Shown in pieces: positions 55,187 to 62,514 of a DNA stretch of 64,000 nt. The position numbers and the translations under genes were made by a program. Source of the stretch: Lactobacillus gasseri ATCC 33323 = JCM 1131. GTDB taxonomy: Bacteria; Bacillota; Bacilli; Lactobacillales; Lactobacillaceae. Under the pieces are notes generated by a model. The model had not been told where the DNA came from. It saw only the letters and a program-made list of their open reading frames with translations, and ran no database searches. How positions within the stretch are numbered: the first letter of the stretch is position 1; every line of letters begins with the position of its first letter. The DNA lies in contig NC_008530.1 in the NCBI RefSeq assembly GCF_000014425.1, positions 1,488,001 to 1,552,000 of the forward strand, in the 5' to 3' direction.

Positions 55187-56179
55187 ATGCGAGTATTAGT
55201 TATCGGTGGGGCCGGTTATATCGGCTCTCACGCTGTTAGAAAGTTAATTGAAGAAGGTAACGATGTCGTTGTCCTTGATTCTCTCTACACTGGCCACAGA
55301 AAGGCTGTTGACAAGAAAGCTAAGTTTTACCAAGGCGATATTGAAGATACTAATTTAGTAAGCAAGATCTTACGTGATGAAAACATTGATGCTGTAATGC
55401 ACTTCGCCGCTTACTCATTAGTTCCTGAATCAGTTAAGAAACCATTGAAGTACTACGACAATAACGTTTCAGGTATGATTTCTCTTCTGCAAGCAATGGA
55501 CGACGCTAAAGTTAAGTACTTAGTATTCTCATCTTCTGCTGCAACTTATGGCATTCCAAAGACATTGCCAATTACTGAAGATACACCGCTTGATCCAATC
55601 AATCCATACGGTGAAACTAAGATGATGATGGAAAAGATTATGCACTGGGCTGACAAGGCTGACGGCATTAAGTCAATTGCTCTGCGCTACTTTAATGTGG
55701 CTGGCGCTTCAAGCGATGGTTCAATTGGTGAAGACCATGGTCCTGAAACTCACTTAATTCCAAACATCTTAAAGAGTGCTATTTCTGGTGATGGCAATTT
55801 CACTATTTTTGGTGACGACTATGACACTAAAGACGGTACTAATGTCCGCGACTATGTTCAAGTTGAAGACTTAATTGACGCTCACATCTTAGCACTTAAG
55901 CATGTAATGGAAACTAACAAGTCTGATGTCTTTAACTTAGGTACTGCTCAAGGTTACTCAAACTTAGAAATCCTTGAAGCTGCTAAGAAAGTTACTGGCA
56001 TTGACATTCCTTACACTATTGGACCAAGAAGAGGTGGAGATCCTGATTCCTTAGTTGCTGACTCAAGCAAGGCTCGTAAAGTCTTAGGCTGGAAGCCAAA
56101 GCATGAAAATGTTGACGATGTAATCGCAACTGCTTGGAACTGGCACAAGAGCCACCCAAAGGGTTACGAAGATAAGTAA
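55187..56179 (+). CDS. galE: UDP-glucose 4-epimerase
   Basis: A 330-residue short-chain dehydrogenase-type epimerase interconverting UDP-glucose and UDP-galactose, needed for galactose use and cell-surface sugars. The NAD site is VIGGAGYIGSHAVRKL, the catalytic Ser region is FSSSAATYG near residue 120 and Tyr-Lys is in NPYGETK near 145. AAGGAG precedes the start. Codon use looks highly optimised compared with its neighbours, suggesting strong expression. Confidence 0.96.
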   Translation: MRVLVIGGAGYIGSHAVRKLIEEGNDVVVLDSLYTGHRKAVDKKAKFYQGDIEDTNLVSKILRDENIDAVMHFAAYSLVPESVKKPLKYYDNNVSGMISLLQAMDDAKVKYLVFSSSAATYGIPKTLPITEDTPLDPINPYGETKMMMEKIMHWADKADGIKSIALRYFNVAGASSDGSIGEDHGPETHLIPNILKSAISGDGNFTIFGDDYDTKDGTNVRDYVQVEDLIDAHILALKHVMETNKSDVFNLGTAQGYSNLEILEAAKKVTGIDIPYTIGPRRGGDPDSLVADSSKARKVLGWKPKHENVDDVIATAWNWHKSHPKGYEDK

Positions 56180-56187
56180 AGGTAATA

Positions 56188-56232
56188 AAAATAACCATTC
56201 AGTTAACTGATAACTGAATGGTTATTTTTTTA
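56188..56232. terminator. Bidirectional terminator between galE and sngC
   Basis: AATAACCATTCAGTTA pairs with TAACTGAATGGTTATT, with T residues after it; the sngC stop codon is at its right edge. Confidence 0.88.
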
Positions 56233-58452
56233 TCTCAATTTATTGACACACTCTTTCATTTCTTTAATATCCAAAATACTTTGCGCAAATTCTTTTCTTA
56301 CTAATTCATCTGGTAAATACTCATCATATTTATCAAAAACAGGAACTTCTTTCGGATAAACTAATTCCAATGGATCGAAGTCTTTATTTGCTTCTTCTTT
56401 CAGAATTTCTAAAAATTCATCCTTACCTACATCCATCGCAAATTGCATAAAATATGGTCGACTAGAATTAAAACCTCTTAAGCCAAGGCGTTTAGCACAT
56501 TTTATCTTAATTAATCTTTCTAATGCTAAAAACGCATAAGTACCAGTCCAAGGAAAAAGACACCACATTTTTCCACCAAGATTAATTAAATTACTCTCTA
56601 GCATCCTTGAAGTTTGTGCTGTATCCCGCACTTCTTTTAAACGCGCTACAGCATGCTTCATTAAGTATGGATATTGCGTTTTTTCGCCTAAGATTTTCCT
56701 CATTCTCTGTAAAATCTTAGGTTGAATGTCTCCTGCTACATCCCCGAAATAAGCTGGAATTCGTCCTTTAACAGGATAGCAATAAACTTGATGTCGTTTT
56801 CGATCTACATCCTCTACTACCCAAACACGGCCAGCAATTGCAATCTTATCTCCAACTGGAGGTGGCTTAACAATTGTTCCCAATTCTTCAGAATCAGATT
56901 TAACAGAATATTCTTCATTTTCTTGGAAAACAGCATAAAACTTAAAATTGTTTATTACTCGCTCTCCAGTTAATCCAATAATCAAACCACCATTTTCGGT
57001 TTGTTGAATATGATCTTCTTTGATCAAATAACGTAATAGAACTCGATAATCATTTTGACTAACGTTATGGAAATAATGGAGCGTTAATACTCGAGATGCC
57101 AGTTCAGCTGGAGTCATTTCCCCGCTTGATGCTAAAGTTGACATAGTTTGATGATACAGCAAACTATATGGTAGTCTGTTGGGTTCTGGCGGTTCCACCC
57201 ATTTTTCTTCTAAATATAGCTGAACTAAAGCAATTCCTTGGAGTAATGACCAAGGGATAATTTCCGGCAGCATCGCACGAGACTCAGGATGGGACTCCCG
57301 CATCACAAACCACATTTCTGCTGGATTTCCCCTGCGTCCAGTTCTACCCATCCTTTGTAAAAAACCAGAGACTGTAAAAGGAGCATCAACTTGAAAGGCA
57401 CGCTCTAATTTTCCAATATCAATACCTAATTCAAGCGTTGCGGTTGCACAAGTTGTCATTAATGAATCTTCGTTTTTCATTTCAGCTTCTGCAGTTTGGC
57501 GATATGCAGCTGACAAATTACCATGATGAATTAAAAAACGGTCTGGCTCATGATTTATTTCACAATACTGTCTTAAAATTTGACATACTGCTTCGCATTC
57601 TTCTCGACTATTAGTAAAAACCAAACATTTCTTTCCACGCGTATGTTCAAAAATATAAGCCATCGATGGATCAGCCATTTGAGGTGCCTGATCACTTTTC
57701 TCATCTAAAACTGGCTGAGCTGGGTCAAAGCCACTACTATCAGCTTGTGGTCCATTATCATAAAAATGCTCCATCGATAATCGCCAAACTTGACCCCCAC
57801 TTTCTGTCTTAGGAACCGTAGTTCTACGTTTCGACCCTGCTCCTAAAAATCTAGCAGCAGATTCAGTATCACCAATCGTTGCAGAAAGTCCGATTCGCCT
57901 TGGATCAACTCCAGCCATTTTCGATAATCTCTCAATCAAACAAAAAGTTTGTCCTCCTCGATCTGATCGTAAAAAAGAATGAAGTTCGTCAATGACTACA
58001 TATCTTAAATCATGAAACAAATTAGGAATATCCATATGCTTGTTAATCATCAACGATTCTAAAGATTCTGGAGTGATTTGTAGAATTCCCGATGGATGCT
58101 TAAGCAGTTTCCTTTTTTGGGTTTGAGCTACTTCACCATGCCAACGCCAAATTGGGATATCAACATCTTGGCAAAGATCCGTTAATCGTTCATATTGGTC
58201 ATTTATTAGTGCCTTTAGTGGTGAAATATACAGAACACCAACAGAGCTGGAAGGATTTTCATATAGATCCGTCAAAATTGGAAAAAAAGCCGCTTCAGTC
58301 TTACCAGACGCTGTCGAAGCAGCTAGCAAGACATTATCTTGACTATTAAAAATAGTTTCTGCTGCCCCAACTTGAATTGATCGTAAATTTTTCCAATTAT
58401 GTTCATAAATATAGTCCTGAATAAAAGGAGCAAAACGTGTAAAAATATCCAT
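56230..58452 (-). CDS. sngC: Shango-type defence helicase (Lhr-like DEAD/DEAH), SngC
   Basis: A 740-residue superfamily 2 helicase of the Lhr-like group. Motif I ASTASGKTEAAF is at about 45-56, motif II VVIDELHSF at 152-160, motif III LSAT at 189-192, and the second RecA domain contains KCLVFTNSREECEAV and motif VI QRMGRTGRRGNP. A winged-helix and Lhr-core-like region follows (about 400-740). It starts 8 bases after the ATPase gene and is the last gene of a three-gene operon with a TerB-type protein first. That set matches Shango, an anti-phage system in which all three proteins are required. BREX type 2 also has a related BrxHI helicase, but no other BREX gene is present. Confidence 0.85.
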   Translation of the reverse strand: MDIFTRFAPFIQDYIYEHNWKNLRSIQVGAAETIFNSQDNVLLAASTASGKTEAAFFPILTDLYENPSSSVGVLYISPLKALINDQYERLTDLCQDVDIPIWRWHGEVAQTQKRKLLKHPSGILQITPESLESLMINKHMDIPNLFHDLRYVVIDELHSFLRSDRGGQTFCLIERLSKMAGVDPRRIGLSATIGDTESAARFLGAGSKRRTTVPKTESGGQVWRLSMEHFYDNGPQADSSGFDPAQPVLDEKSDQAPQMADPSMAYIFEHTRGKKCLVFTNSREECEAVCQILRQYCEINHEPDRFLIHHGNLSAAYRQTAEAEMKNEDSLMTTCATATLELGIDIGKLERAFQVDAPFTVSGFLQRMGRTGRRGNPAEMWFVMRESHPESRAMLPEIIPWSLLQGIALVQLYLEEKWVEPPEPNRLPYSLLYHQTMSTLASSGEMTPAELASRVLTLHYFHNVSQNDYRVLLRYLIKEDHIQQTENGGLIIGLTGERVINNFKFYAVFQENEEYSVKSDSEELGTIVKPPPVGDKIAIAGRVWVVEDVDRKRHQVYCYPVKGRIPAYFGDVAGDIQPKILQRMRKILGEKTQYPYLMKHAVARLKEVRDTAQTSRMLESNLINLGGKMWCLFPWTGTYAFLALERLIKIKCAKRLGLRGFNSSRPYFMQFAMDVGKDEFLEILKEEANKDFDPLELVYPKEVPVFDKYDEYLPDELVRKEFAQSILDIKEMKECVNKLR

Positions 58453-58460
58453 TTTTTCAC

Positions 58461-59795
58461 TTAAATTCTAAACTCAGCAAAATTATCAGACTTTTCATCA
58501 GAAACAGCCTCTGACTCAGTATAAGAAAACTTATCAGAATTAAGTAGCTGCTCAATATTAGTCTTAGGATTTTGCCAAACAATATCTAATAATTCAATAA
58601 AATCACGAATAATCTCACGTGGCGTAATATTGGAAGAAGCACCCACACGTGAATATTCAATTTTAATAAATTTTTCTAAGTCATCCTCTGTAATTGTTCT
58701 TTCATATCCATATAAATGAGCGTGCATGTCTGCCAATTTTTCAGCTAAAACTAGCATTTCTTCAGGAGTAAGAGGATCAAGTTTGATAACAGGAGCATAC
58801 ATGTCCCTATTACCAGCTTCTGAAAATTTTCCGCTAGCAAGACGTGAACGTAAAGCCTCGTAAGAATATACGCCTCGTCTCTTGTCTTCAACAGCTTGAG
58901 GCGTACCACACATAATAATTCCCAAATACTTTGATTTTCCTTGTAAAGCATCATTATACATTGTTAGTATCTTTTCATAATTGTACTGCCGGCTGATACT
59001 ATTCGGAATTTTATAAATATTAACTAATTCATCAATCATAATCATTAAACCAGCATATCCAGCCTGTCTAAAGAATGAAGCAAATAACTTAAGGTACTCA
59101 TACCAATCATCATCCGAGATTACAATATCTACCCCTAGCTCTTTTTTAGCTTGAGTCTTATTTTCATATTCTCCCCTAAACCATTTAATAACTTTAGCTT
59201 TAGTTTCTTCATCATTATTAATATAGGCTTGATAATACATTTTGAGCAATTTAGCAAAATCAAAACCATGCACTAATTCAGAAAGACTAGAAATTACCGC
59301 ATAGATCTTTTTATTAACTGCTTCTTCAAAAGCTGGGTCATCTGCATTTAAATTAGTGTCTGTGGCAACTTGCATTTGAACTGAATTAATCCAGCGATCA
59401 AGAATTAAAGTTAAGGCTCCACCTTCTGGTCTAGTCTTAGTAGAAAGATTTTGAATCAACTCACGATAGGTAGCTAATCCTTGTCCTTTTCCACCTTGCA
59501 GACGTCTTTCAGGTGATAAATCTCCATCAACTACGACAAAATTCTTATCCATTACATAATTTCTAATTGTTTGAAGCAAAAAACTTTTTCCAGACCCATA
59601 TCGACCAACAATAAACCTAAAAGATGCGCCACCATTTTCAATTAACTCTACATCATGCAGCAAAGCTTCAATCTCAGCTTTTCTTCCAACCGTAATATAG
59701 GGTAAGCCAATTCTTGGAACTACTCCTCCTTTTAAAGAATTTAATATAGTTTGAGCTATTCTCTTAGGTACTTTTCTTTTTTTATTAATAGCCAT
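58461..59795 (-). CDS. sngB: Shango-type P-loop ATPase (BREX DUF2791-like), SngB
   Basis: A 444-residue ATPase of the BrxC/BrxD-type (DUF2791) family. Walker A is GRYGSGKS at residues 64-71 and Walker B MIMIDE at 251-256, followed by a LVNIYK stretch; the N-terminal IGLPYITVGRKAEIEALLHD block is typical. A likely Arg finger region is EALRSRLASGKF near 310. It is separated by 4 bases from sngA and 8 from sngC, so translation is probably coupled. In Shango the ATPase works with the helicase; the molecular target has not been settled. Confidence 0.88.
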   Translation of the reverse strand: MAINKKRKVPKRIAQTILNSLKGGVVPRIGLPYITVGRKAEIEALLHDVELIENGGASFRFIVGRYGSGKSFLLQTIRNYVMDKNFVVVDGDLSPERRLQGGKGQGLATYRELIQNLSTKTRPEGGALTLILDRWINSVQMQVATDTNLNADDPAFEEAVNKKIYAVISSLSELVHGFDFAKLLKMYYQAYINNDEETKAKVIKWFRGEYENKTQAKKELGVDIVISDDDWYEYLKLFASFFRQAGYAGLMIMIDELVNIYKIPNSISRQYNYEKILTMYNDALQGKSKYLGIIMCGTPQAVEDKRRGVYSYEALRSRLASGKFSEAGNRDMYAPVIKLDPLTPEEMLVLAEKLADMHAHLYGYERTITEDDLEKFIKIEYSRVGASSNITPREIIRDFIELLDIVWQNPKTNIEQLLNSDKFSYTESEAVSDEKSDNFAEFRI

Positions 59796-59799
59796 CTTT

Positions 59800-61698
59800 C
59801 TAATTTTTTCCTTTCAAAAACATGTCTTCTATATCTTCTTGATAGTCTTCAATTATTGCTGGTACATCATTGACAAATTCGATTACATTATCACCGATTT
59901 CATCAAAAAGTCTTTCATTTATATTGTCGATCACAACTGCTGTCATTAGATGCTTTTCTTTAAGATATTGAGCAGGATTTTCACCTTTTAAGAGCATCTT
60001 GATAGTATGCAATTCTTCTCGACTTAGACCATAATCTTCAAAATCCTCGTCCCTATCTTTTTCAGTAATTTCTTCAAGTTGCTTTTCTTCCTTTTCAGCT
60101 CGTAATTCTTCCTCAGTTAATAAACTATCCCTTGTACCAGCGGCATCCTCTCTGATGGTAGACAAATGCGCTAAATTAATTTCAATCTTTGGTTGTTTTA
60201 ATTTATATTCTTCAATTTTGTACTTCTTAATTCCATCTTTTATAGCCTGAAGATAATGCTTTTCAATTTTTCTAGGCTTTAAGTTTCGCCCTAAATTAAA
60301 GTTTTTCCTAACTTCACGATCAACTTCGTGCAGTAAATTTCCAACAATACTTTTTTGACCTGCTAATCCCCAATAAGACTCACAATACCACGAAGCTTTT
60401 TCTTTATCATAAAAATACTTTCTAATTTGATCAATTTCAAAATTAACTGTCTTAGGTATTAATTTATGGTTGAACACAGCAGCGGAAAATAACTGCACCG
60501 TCATCTGATTTTTATAAGTAATATAATTAGTCAAAAAATCAAAACCATCTTGACGTAAATCTAAGATTTGCTGCCAAACTAAAACTAATAAATGTTCAAA
60601 TTTTTCTGGATTCTTTTTATATAAAGGACAGTTTTCAATTTTATAATTAGATAAATTTATTAAGCTTTCTGCAACTTCATGATCAGAAAATTGATTTGGA
60701 TACAACAAATGCTCATATTTTTTATCCTTCTCCTGCTCTTTCTGAAAAAATTCATTTCTTTTTTCATTAATATTATAAAAAATAATATAGTCGCGAATCC
60801 ATCTATCAAGATATGCTGCCATTTCTTTGGAAAAAATTTGAGCATAATTTTTATTAAAATTGATTAACTTATCTAACCCGTCTTGAACATTCTCTACGCC
60901 TATTCCATTTAATAACTCATATAAATAAATATAAGCATATGAATTAGATACCTTCTCATAAATATTATTCCTAACCTTAGTGCGCCAAGCAAAATAAGTC
61001 CGTGCTTGTCCAACAGTTAATTCATGGTAAGTCGGATAATAACGCAAAAATGACTGCTTCTTTTGATAATTATCTTCATAAGTAGCCATTAATTTACCTT
61101 GCAAATAAAAATTCTGTTCTTTGCGGACCGAACCTGCCAAATCATAACGATATGACTTAATCATTTTTTGAATTTGTTCGGGAACAGATGCTGTGTTTTC
61201 AAAATTTAAATCAGTTTTTGCTTCATTAGAATCAGCTTTTTGCTTAGGATTATTATTGTCATTAGCTTTTTTCCAATTATTAAAATTTATTTTTTGTTCA
61301 TGATAAACATCTTGTTGATTCGCTTTATCCGTATTCGCATCAGGTATATAGATTAATTTTTCAGGATTAGGTACCTTATTTGACATGAGCACTACTTTGA
61401 AAGCATACTCTAAAGATTGTTTTATCTTTTGTTCGCTTAAAAGCAAACTAACTTCTACCCACTTGTTATCTCTTATCAAAGAAGCAGCTGAGAACCCCGG
61501 TAAATCTCTAATGGTCGTTGCGAAATCGCCACAATTGATATTTAATTTCTTATTTTTAGGATCTAAATCTAAAAGAGCAAACCAATTTTTAGTAATCGGT
61601 GAACTAAAAGCAACTAAATTAGAATTATCATTAAGTTCACTAATACTATTCTTTCCAAAGTGTCTAATAGCATAGCTCAAGAGTTCATCAATATTCAT
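59800..61698 (-). CDS. sngA: Shango-type TerB-domain protein, SngA, with YjbR-like N-terminus
   Basis: 632 residues. Residues about 1-107 resemble the YjbR/MmcQ fold: WFALLDLDPKNKKLNINCGDF, then LPGFSAASLIRDNKWVEVSL. A low-complexity Asn/Lys linker follows (about 120-168). The TerB N-terminal domain is at about 170-315 (ELTVGQARTYFAWRTKVRNN, YLYELLNGIGVEN, DRWIRDY). A charged Glu/Lys segment near 530-555 leads to the TerB C-terminal domain (about 555-632: VVIDNINERLFDEIGDNVIEF and an EDYQ-type end). It is the first gene of the operon. Annotation as tellurite resistance would be misleading; the TerB-ATPase-helicase set indicates phage defence. Domain edges are judged by eye. Confidence 0.85.
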   Translation of the reverse strand: MNIDELLSYAIRHFGKNSISELNDNSNLVAFSSPITKNWFALLDLDPKNKKLNINCGDFATTIRDLPGFSAASLIRDNKWVEVSLLLSEQKIKQSLEYAFKVVLMSNKVPNPEKLIYIPDANTDKANQQDVYHEQKINFNNWKKANDNNNPKQKADSNEAKTDLNFENTASVPEQIQKMIKSYRYDLAGSVRKEQNFYLQGKLMATYEDNYQKKQSFLRYYPTYHELTVGQARTYFAWRTKVRNNIYEKVSNSYAYIYLYELLNGIGVENVQDGLDKLINFNKNYAQIFSKEMAAYLDRWIRDYIIFYNINEKRNEFFQKEQEKDKKYEHLLYPNQFSDHEVAESLINLSNYKIENCPLYKKNPEKFEHLLVLVWQQILDLRQDGFDFLTNYITYKNQMTVQLFSAAVFNHKLIPKTVNFEIDQIRKYFYDKEKASWYCESYWGLAGQKSIVGNLLHEVDREVRKNFNLGRNLKPRKIEKHYLQAIKDGIKKYKIEEYKLKQPKIEINLAHLSTIREDAAGTRDSLLTEEELRAEKEEKQLEEITEKDRDEDFEDYGLSREELHTIKMLLKGENPAQYLKEKHLMTAVVIDNINERLFDEIGDNVIEFVNDVPAIIEDYQEDIEDMFLKGKN

Positions 61699-61762
61699 GG
61701 CCTCAGCTCCTTTCGAACGTATATTCTACTATATTTTACTTGGTCGATCCATAAACTTGCAG

Positions 61763-61803
61763 CAAAAAAGGCACCGAAATCATTCAATTTCAGTGCCAAG
61801 AAA
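61763..61803 (-). terminator. Terminator of the carboxymuconolactone decarboxylase gene
   Basis: GGCACTGAAAT pairs with ATTTCGGTGCC (one G-T pair) and six T follow on the minus strand. It insulates the Shango operon promoter region (61699-61762) from read-through. Confidence 0.85.
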
Positions 61804-61807
61804 GAAA

Positions 61808-62514
61808 TTATTTTACTTGATTAATAACATTAATTGCATTTAGGCTACGTGGATAGCCAATAAATGGTACATTAGCTAAAACTATTTTTGTTAAAAACTG
61901 TTGATCATTTCCTAAGCCAACATTTGTCTTAGCATGAGCTAATAATTGTGGTTCACAAACGCCCTGAACAGCTAAGTAACAGAACGTAATCATTTCGCGT
62001 TCTTTGTCACTAAGACCTTTTCTCGTGTAATAATCACCGAAACAATTATCCACTAACCACTTATTAATAGTCCCCTTTTTAGCAAAGTCTTTCATTTGAG
62101 GACCAAACAATCTCATCTGAGTTTCCTCGCCTTTTTCAAGCCTATCCTCCATCATTGTTGTAGCTTGTTTTGGCAAAGGTAACTTTTCTCCGCGAGCAAG
62201 CAAAATAGTATTAGTTACTTTAAAAAATGGCATTACACGCCCTAAGCCTAAATAATCAACTGCTTGATAAACAACCTCTTTTACTTCAACTGGACTTACA
62301 CCATTATCTAAAGCTACAGGTAACATCAAACGATATTCTTCTAAGCCCTGCATCCCTAATAAATAAGCTAAATTAGAAATTAATTTTGTTTTATTTGATA
62401 AATCTACATCATCTTGAACTTCTTCGAAAGTAAAATGACTAATTCGCTCCCATGCTTCTGGATCATTTTCTTTTAAAACTTTTTCATGAATATTTTTTTA
62501 TCTTCTCTAAACAT
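61808..62514 (-). pseudogene. Carboxymuconolactone decarboxylase-family gene with frameshift
   Basis: The frame ending at 61808 is open upstream to a TAA near 62502 and encodes two CMD/AhpD-like segments (LAYLLGMQGLEEYRLMLP near the start, EREMITFCYLAVQGVCE later). A plausible start, ATG at 62512-62514 with AGAGG upstream, lies in another frame and reads MFREDKKIF. Adding one A to the seven-A run (62493-62499 on the minus strand) joins the two into a protein of about 235 residues. So the gene is either inactivated or switched by slippage. The usual CxxC of AhpD is not present; only one Cys is in the second domain. Confidence 0.7.

Follow-up and report, generated by a model that had tools for sequence, protein, structure and literature searches.

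Which system does the three-gene operon beside galE in Lactobacillus gasseri ATCC 33323 = JCM 1131 belong to, and what might it do for the cell? The operon lies in a stretch of 64,000 nucleotides (nt; NC_008530.1, forward-strand positions 1,488,001 to 1,552,000), referred to herein as the window, for which an earlier, sequence-only reading had proposed a complete Shango anti-phage operon. With a probability of roughly 0.85, we regard the locus as a full Shango anti-phage operon, belonging to a variant found chiefly in Bacillota, in which SngA would sense the invader, SngB would load the helicase and SngC would translocate on DNA; the anti-phage role is part of what we infer. Shango is an already known system, present here with a variant SngA.

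The operon consists of three intact minus-strand open reading frames (ORFs), 61698-56230, with ATG starts and intergenic gaps of 4 and 8 nt, exactly where the sequence-only reading had placed its three genes (lengths in amino acids, aa):

59800..61698, minus strand: sngA, the operon's first gene, 632 aa, TerB_N/TerB_C protein; ORF and PADLOC SngA profile at 4.2e-73 over residues 79-626
58461..59795, minus strand: sngB, 444 aa, BrxD-like AAA+ ATPase (PF10923 at 7e-171); PADLOC SngB 1.5e-195, BrxD 6.3e-52
56230..58452, minus strand: sngC, 740 aa, superfamily 2 (SF2) helicase, BrxHI/Lhr-like; PADLOC SngC 6.1e-284, BrxHI 1.2e-130

Each protein finds its best PADLOC match in the corresponding Shango profile, with an E-value far beyond chance, and the genes stand in the Shango order A-B-C, adjacent and on one strand. 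The profile search had been proposed by the sequence-only reading as a check on its identification of the trio; the identification is upheld for all three proteins, with the refinement that this SngA differs from the described TerB-domain SngA. The Shango of a Klebsiella plasmid likewise has the three PADLOC profiles as best matches, and the systems of E. coli and P. aeruginosa share the layout, with the gene of a TerB-type protein followed directly by those of the ATPase and the helicase. When cloned, P. aeruginosa Shango (the PA14 system, with protection shown in PAO1) lowers plating 10-100 fold for many but not all phages (PMC10250203). A cross-genome scan, covering the best 80 of 589 confirmed loci and with patterns that favour the query's relatives, gave the A-B-C order on one strand in 76 of the 80; among the other four, the contig of L145 starts near sngB and those of L101, L128 and L154 end soon after it. 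Many of the scanned loci are metagenome-assembled genomes (MAGs), whose taxonomy may be wrong. The PADLOC scan of 10 other ORFs of the window found no defence gene among them.

Given that type 2 BREX (bacteriophage exclusion) links BrxD with BrxHI as a pair (PMC12839542), and that SngB and SngC match them as listed above, SngC over its full length, the operon could be read as a remnant or rewired type 2 BREX module that kept an adjacent, homologous ATPase and helicase, lost the rest of BREX and is not Shango. The profile scores of SngB and SngC exceed those of BrxD and BrxHI by 473 and 507 bits, the NCBIfam BREX_BrxD model gives SngB 173 against a cut-off of 350, and the locus has sngA, in the order kept by the 76 loci just mentioned. 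A genome-wide search found no PglZ, no PF10923 gene other than sngB (hence no BrxC of that family) and no BrxD-profile match other than sngB; it did not extend to PglX and the other BREX genes, so that the earlier statement that no other BREX genes are present holds for the genes searched. The lower BrxD and BrxHI scores and the missing PglZ rule out the BREX remnant as a working explanation, and we consider it very improbable.

The Shango assignment is joined by intact catalytic machinery. Pfam finds TerB_N and TerB_C in SngA, PF10923 (BrxC_BrxD, the former DUF2791) in SngB, and DEAD and Helicase_C with a sub-threshold WH_Lhr match in SngC, in line with the TerB-N/TerB-C protein, DUF2791-like ATPase and Lhr-like helicase named before. 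With phmmer, SngC matches PDB 5v9x and 7lhl, each an 'ATP-dependent DNA helicase' and both presumably Lhr.

59583..59606, minus strand: SngB Walker A, residues 64-71; motif alignment
59028..59048, minus strand: SngB Walker B, residues 250-256; D and E in 66/66 aligned proteins
57868..58380, minus strand: SngC DEAD domain, residues 25-195; Pfam 6.2e-30
57328..57654, minus strand: SngC Helicase_C, residues 267-375; Pfam 3.3e-16

The claim that the key ATPase and helicase motifs are intact proved right: Walker A and B of SngB and motifs Q, I, Ia, II, III, IV, V and VI of SngC are all present. The catalytic residues, i.e., Walker A G-K-S, Walker B D-E, motif I GKT, motif II D-E-H and the motif VI arginines, are conserved in all 66 aligned proteins or in 65 of them, and the remaining motif positions vary. 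No nuclease or methyltransferase domain was found by Pfam in SngA, SngB or SngC. The helicase core is shared with Lhr/Ski2-like SF2 helicases and with HamB of Hachiman; unlike Hachiman, the system in the window is not a two-gene nuclease-helicase pair. SngC, BrxHI, DruE and DpdJ have been described as a potentially distinct defence clade (PMC12278908).

The feature that sets this operon apart is the architecture of SngA:

61381..61698, minus strand: YjbR/MmcQ-like domain (double-wing, DNA-binding type), SngA residues 1-106; family profile against PDB 2kfp/3h9x at 3e-11 and Foldseek on the predicted model
60565..61197, minus strand: TerB_N (PF13208), SngA residues 168-378; Pfam 2.1e-35
59827..60228, minus strand: TerB_C (PF15615), SngA residues 491-624; Pfam 1.8e-21; end of the model helix-helix-helix-strand-strand-helix

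A review lists TerB (PF05099) as a Shango domain (PMC10952713). Of eight SngA tested from Pseudomonadota and Fusobacteriota, a set that does not include the P. aeruginosa protein, seven carry TerB_N, a central PF05099 and TerB_C (from a Klebsiella plasmid, a Salmonella plasmid, two E. coli, Cetobacterium, Pseudoalteromonas and Sagittula), and the Aeromonas protein is the one without a PF05099 match. These eight proteins measure 736-842 aa, whereas SngA of the window has 632 aa, no PF05099 and a YjbR-like N-terminus. In an alignment of the window's SngA with those of 67 of the 80 scanned loci (13 omitted because sngA was absent, broken, cut, fused or too short), PF05099 was found at E <= 0.01 in 0 of 68 proteins, all of which have TerB_N and TerB_C. 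Between these two domains, the model of the window's SngA has strands at 394-444, unlike TerB, which is all-helical. SngA from a Bacillota plasmid copy in Paenibacillus matches neither PF05099 nor YjbR. Since this PF05099-free protein scores as high in the PADLOC SngA profile (360 bits) as the PF05099-containing one of Klebsiella (350; window 246), PF05099 is treated here as a variable rather than a defining part of Shango, commonly present and not required by the PADLOC profile.

The N-terminal 106 residues are assigned to a YjbR/MmcQ-like domain on the combined evidence of family profile and predicted structure. The profile built from the 68 SngA matches 2kfp/3h9x over positions 1-106; this protein, PSPTO_3016, is a YjbR/DUF419 protein according to a reference in PMC7641849. 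Weak Pfam YjbR matches occur in 9 of the 68 (best 3.3e-4). The AlphaFold2 model of SngA (mean predicted local distance difference test score 87.7, predicted template modelling (TM) score 0.59) shows, with good confidence, an alpha/beta domain spanning about 1-106, followed by a linker of low confidence (about 109-165) and a helical TerB_N. Foldseek places four YjbR/DUF419 structures at ranks 1-4 with probability 1.00 (3h9x, 2kfp, 2fki and 2a1v; target TM 0.69, 0.61, 0.66 and 0.58), only 3h9x lying below E 0.001, and no PDB match beyond YjbR passes that threshold. As a control, an N-terminal hidden Markov model built from 52 of the 68 rows was run against five YjbR proteins of other Lactobacillales: two were recovered with E-values no worse than 2e-9, and the remaining three gave 0.07, 0.27 and no match; the best of 88 decoy frames reached 0.13. 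Applied to nine plasmid and E. coli SngA, the same model detected no YjbR domain at a significant level. The fusion of YjbR to TerB has been published before (Bell et al. 2020, with reference to Anantharaman et al. 2012; PMC7641849). YjbR-EVE and YjbR-TerB fusions resemble SngA in joining YjbR to another defence-associated domain; they differ in that the available text of PMC7641849 does not mention Shango, which was named later. In a literature search that lacked most subscription papers, no description of the fusion as SngA of a Shango branch was found.

On a tree of SngB, the eight Pseudomonadota and Fusobacteriota copies (seven TerB, one neither) split from 73 others, each side at 100/100, with some long branches (Cetobacterium 2.79). 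The larger side is mostly Bacillota, along with MAGs labelled Chloroflexota, Bacteroidota, Planctomycetota, Actinomycetota and two Pseudomonadota, and comprises 54 rows with YjbR and 19 without; some SngA scored as having neither domain are cut by contig ends (e.g., L136). The YjbR label requires eight changes on this tree, six of them forced, which indicates that the domain was lost or gained several times.

Unusual SngA genes were also seen. In L149 (1745-6973), a tandem sngA pair precedes sngB, encoding 1092 aa with two TerB_N stretches and TerB_C, and 648 aa with a weak YjbR match. In an Erysipelotrichaceae MAG (L128, 487-3768), a 1093-aa SngA-like protein encoded before sngB has three TerB_C stretches and no TerB_N at E 1e-5. 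An effector was sought through such fusions, and neither long SngA holds an enzyme domain. Between sngB and sngC, a rumen Bacteroidales MAG (L102, 3783-6813) carries genes for two DNA methylases (PF01555) and for an endonuclease of the EcoRI family (PF02963, 5.3e-151).

SngA is also by far the fastest-evolving subunit. Against L032, the identities are 79% for SngA, 95% for SngB and 94% for SngC, and the ratios of nonsynonymous to synonymous substitution (dN/dS) are 0.123, 0.045 and 0.040; against more distant lactobacilli, the identities are 31-41%, 74-85% and 71-78%, respectively. Among the 65 of 80 scanned loci with full A, B and C, pairs whose SngB are 68-72% identical average 26.6% in SngA and 66.5% in SngC. 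Columns conserved at 90% or more over 66 rows number 36 of 632 in SngA, 241 of 444 in SngB and 370 of 740 in SngC, and the divergence is spread across the whole of SngA with a peak at 126-175. In the other clade, all 21 pairs formed by seven loci have SngA as the subunit of lowest identity, ties included (E. coli pair: A 53, B 85, C 71). As many dS values are near saturation and no dN/dS value suggests positive selection, this is fast evolution and not proven adaptive evolution, and positive selection on SngA is rejected as a claim. Swapping of sngA cassettes was also rejected as a general rule: among 406 locus pairs, only L048/L053, from two species, had sngA much closer than sngB. Their near-identical tract also covers a phosphoenolpyruvate (PEP) carboxykinase gene and breaks at the sngA/sngB junction, with sngB and sngC not exchanged; it is one ordinary recombination tract.

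Is the operon a defence element or part of the household? A helicase, a loader-like ATPase and a TerB-type stress protein might instead form a host DNA-repair or stress-response operon with no defence role in lactobacilli. TerB-type proteins are tied to stress responses in the title of a reference cited in PMC7641849, a single slot is common to many carriers, and no Lactobacillus Shango paper was found in a literature search judged by title and abstract. The distribution is nevertheless that of an accessory element. With SngB as query, 32 of 75 congeneric genomes gave a match, or 28 of the 60 of good quality (15 fall below the quality cut); the survey took one genome per species and speaks to presence between species. 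This comparison, also proposed by the sequence-only reading, rules out an operon universal among relatives, since 43 of the 75 have no match. The slot also occurs Shango-free or eroded, broken copies exist, and SngA evolves fast. SngB relatives were found on 691 plasmid records, and all 7 that were opened have A, B and C annotated as neighbours; a household role is in our view unlikely. The plasmid records include 449 from Klebsiella and 144 from Salmonella, and 542 are typed conjugative; phage records gave no SngB relative at E 1e-5. Named relatives in the cross-genome scan include L. johnsonii, L. hamsteri, L. kefiranofaciens, L. kitasatonis, L. gallinarum, L. hominis, L. delbrueckii and L. 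equicursoris.

Both flanks noted before, galE and a frameshifted CMD gene, were seen. Gene order was compared in all 31 other SngB carriers: galE adjoins sngC in 13, and in 18 the retrieved stretch includes CMD. Nine show none of galE, CMD, the 146-aa gene and adhE, some being on short contigs, and four of these nine have the PEP-carboxykinase gene (PF01293 in L048) that adjoins sngA in other members of the slot. The slot is Shango-free, without a SngB match, in G019, G034 and G009 (L064-L066), in the order galE, carboxykinase gene, CMD, with an extra 137-aa frame in G019. The nearest relative by flanking genes is G033 (L063), whose galE, dld, CMD and adhE-end proteins are 100, 98, 96 and 97% identical, the most similar of the loci compared. 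There, about 1.5 kb carrying an rve-type transposase gene stand in place of 56204-60485 of the window; about 400 sngA codons are left, and sngB and sngC are gone. That gene (L063 8362-9837) encodes rve and HTH_21 domains, has matching inverted ends and is presumably IS3-like. With the window counted in, sngA is present as a single frame exceeding 90% of its length in 29 of 32 carriers, sngB in 31 and sngC in 30, and genes are in pieces in L035, L037 and L061. The slot is thus variable, as the expression "typical accessory slot" had implied, with a refinement: because the galE/CMD slot is common to many carriers, the operon looks long-resident and often lost more than freshly inserted. The Shango element is probably old in this slot.

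The CMD gene itself (61808-62514) is frameshifted near its 5' end: the frame opened by the start codon runs for 13 codons to a stop, and another stop interrupts the main frame just ahead of the point where CMD sequence is picked up again. The gene of the nearest relative is intact (235 aa). In L033, L034, L048 and L054, CMD is likewise in pieces, pointing to repeated decay of the gene.

The decayed neighbour raises the question of whether a real Shango operon could be silent or non-functional in this strain. The signals around the operon are as follows:

61707..61714, minus strand: Shine-Dalgarno-like GAAAGGAG, 8 nt upstream of the sngA ATG; by eye from the sequence
61770..61797, minus strand: intrinsic-terminator-like hairpin and T-run after CMD; 12-bp stem, 4-nt loop
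56187..56229, both strands: 19-bp hairpin between the convergent galE and sngC ends, with a T-run on either strand; minus a scan match, plus read from the sequence

The last hairpin is a probable shared terminator of galE and sngC. With terminator-like hairpins after CMD and between sngC and galE, the Shango operon is probably transcribed on its own, and its ribosome-binding site is good. The promoter scan found no consensus match in the CMD-sngA gap; with 18 matches against a mean of 24.2 in shuffles, i.e., fewer than chance, it is weak evidence either way. Three full-length ORFs and low dN/dS against near relatives also speak for a maintained operon, and silence or loss of function seems to us quite unlikely.

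On the preferred reading of the locus as functional Shango, SngA would most likely sense, SngB load and SngC translocate on invader DNA. SngA would be a sensor or adaptor that recognises a structure of the invading DNA, or a DNA-bound phage factor, via its fast-evolving surface and, in this variant, also via the N-terminal YjbR/MmcQ double-wing domain; this sensing role is proposed because of the fast rate and the YjbR domain. BrxD, an AAA+ ATPase of the ORC/Cdc6 (origin recognition complex) type, is described as a possible loader or activator of BrxHI (PMC12839542), and the loading step is proposed by analogy with this pair: SngB, an ATPase of the same type, would be licensed by SngA and load SngC. 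SngC, a BrxHI-like SF2 helicase, would translocate on and disrupt phage DNA, most likely replication intermediates. As the operon holds no methyltransferase, discrimination of self from non-self would rest on DNA structure or phage proteins and not on an own modification mark. No paper on the Shango mechanism was among the literature matches listed.

Several points tell against this picture. Profile matches alone do not prove defence, and the anti-phage activity of this locus is inferred only from sequence. No nuclease domain that could finally stop phage DNA was found in the three proteins. By itself, SngA of the window has no Pfam YjbR match, its assignment coming from the family profile and the model. 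DNA binding by YjbR is a structure-based prediction for the family (PMC7641849), and for SngA it would be a prediction carried over from that literature. The 19 of 73 window-side rows without a YjbR match mean that the domain is not needed in every system. Finally, the maximum dN/dS is 0.33 in 20 chosen pairs, many with dS near saturation, and fast SngA evolution can be relaxed constraint.

Two observations concern the surroundings of the slot. Within one genome, the galE copies at 55187-56179 and at G000:C1:1319825-1320814 (L072) are 99.9% identical over 1001 bp from the start codon with unrelated flanks, and a difference of 4.6% separates the window's galE from the flank-sharing galE in the sister species; the paralogues look like the result of recent gene conversion. 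Beyond adhE, four small ORFs (clusters c36, c75, c76 and c77) occur twice within 16 kb (L071, G000:C1:1548000-1564000), a pattern resembling tandem prophage or repeat DNA near the Shango slot.

For the family, the variant SngA is worth a line in the Shango classification. We would tentatively go further, while rating the idea as somewhat less probable than its opposite: Shango may comprise at least two subtypes defined by SngA as the specificity subunit, with the Bacillota-dominated subtype having rebuilt recognition by gaining an N-terminal YjbR/MmcQ DNA-binding module and dispensing with TerB on an almost unchanged SngB-SngC motor. For the organism, the nearest relative, which has naturally lost SngB and SngC and keeps a shortened SngA, makes a ready comparison pair with this strain. 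A fast SngA beside slow SngB and SngC in both deep clades, together with YjbR in place of TerB, suggests concrete, testable roles in which SngA would sense and SngB and SngC would act. If the subtype proposal is true, SngA would be to Shango what HsdS is to type I restriction: a sensor that evolves fast and can be exchanged while the motor stays conserved.

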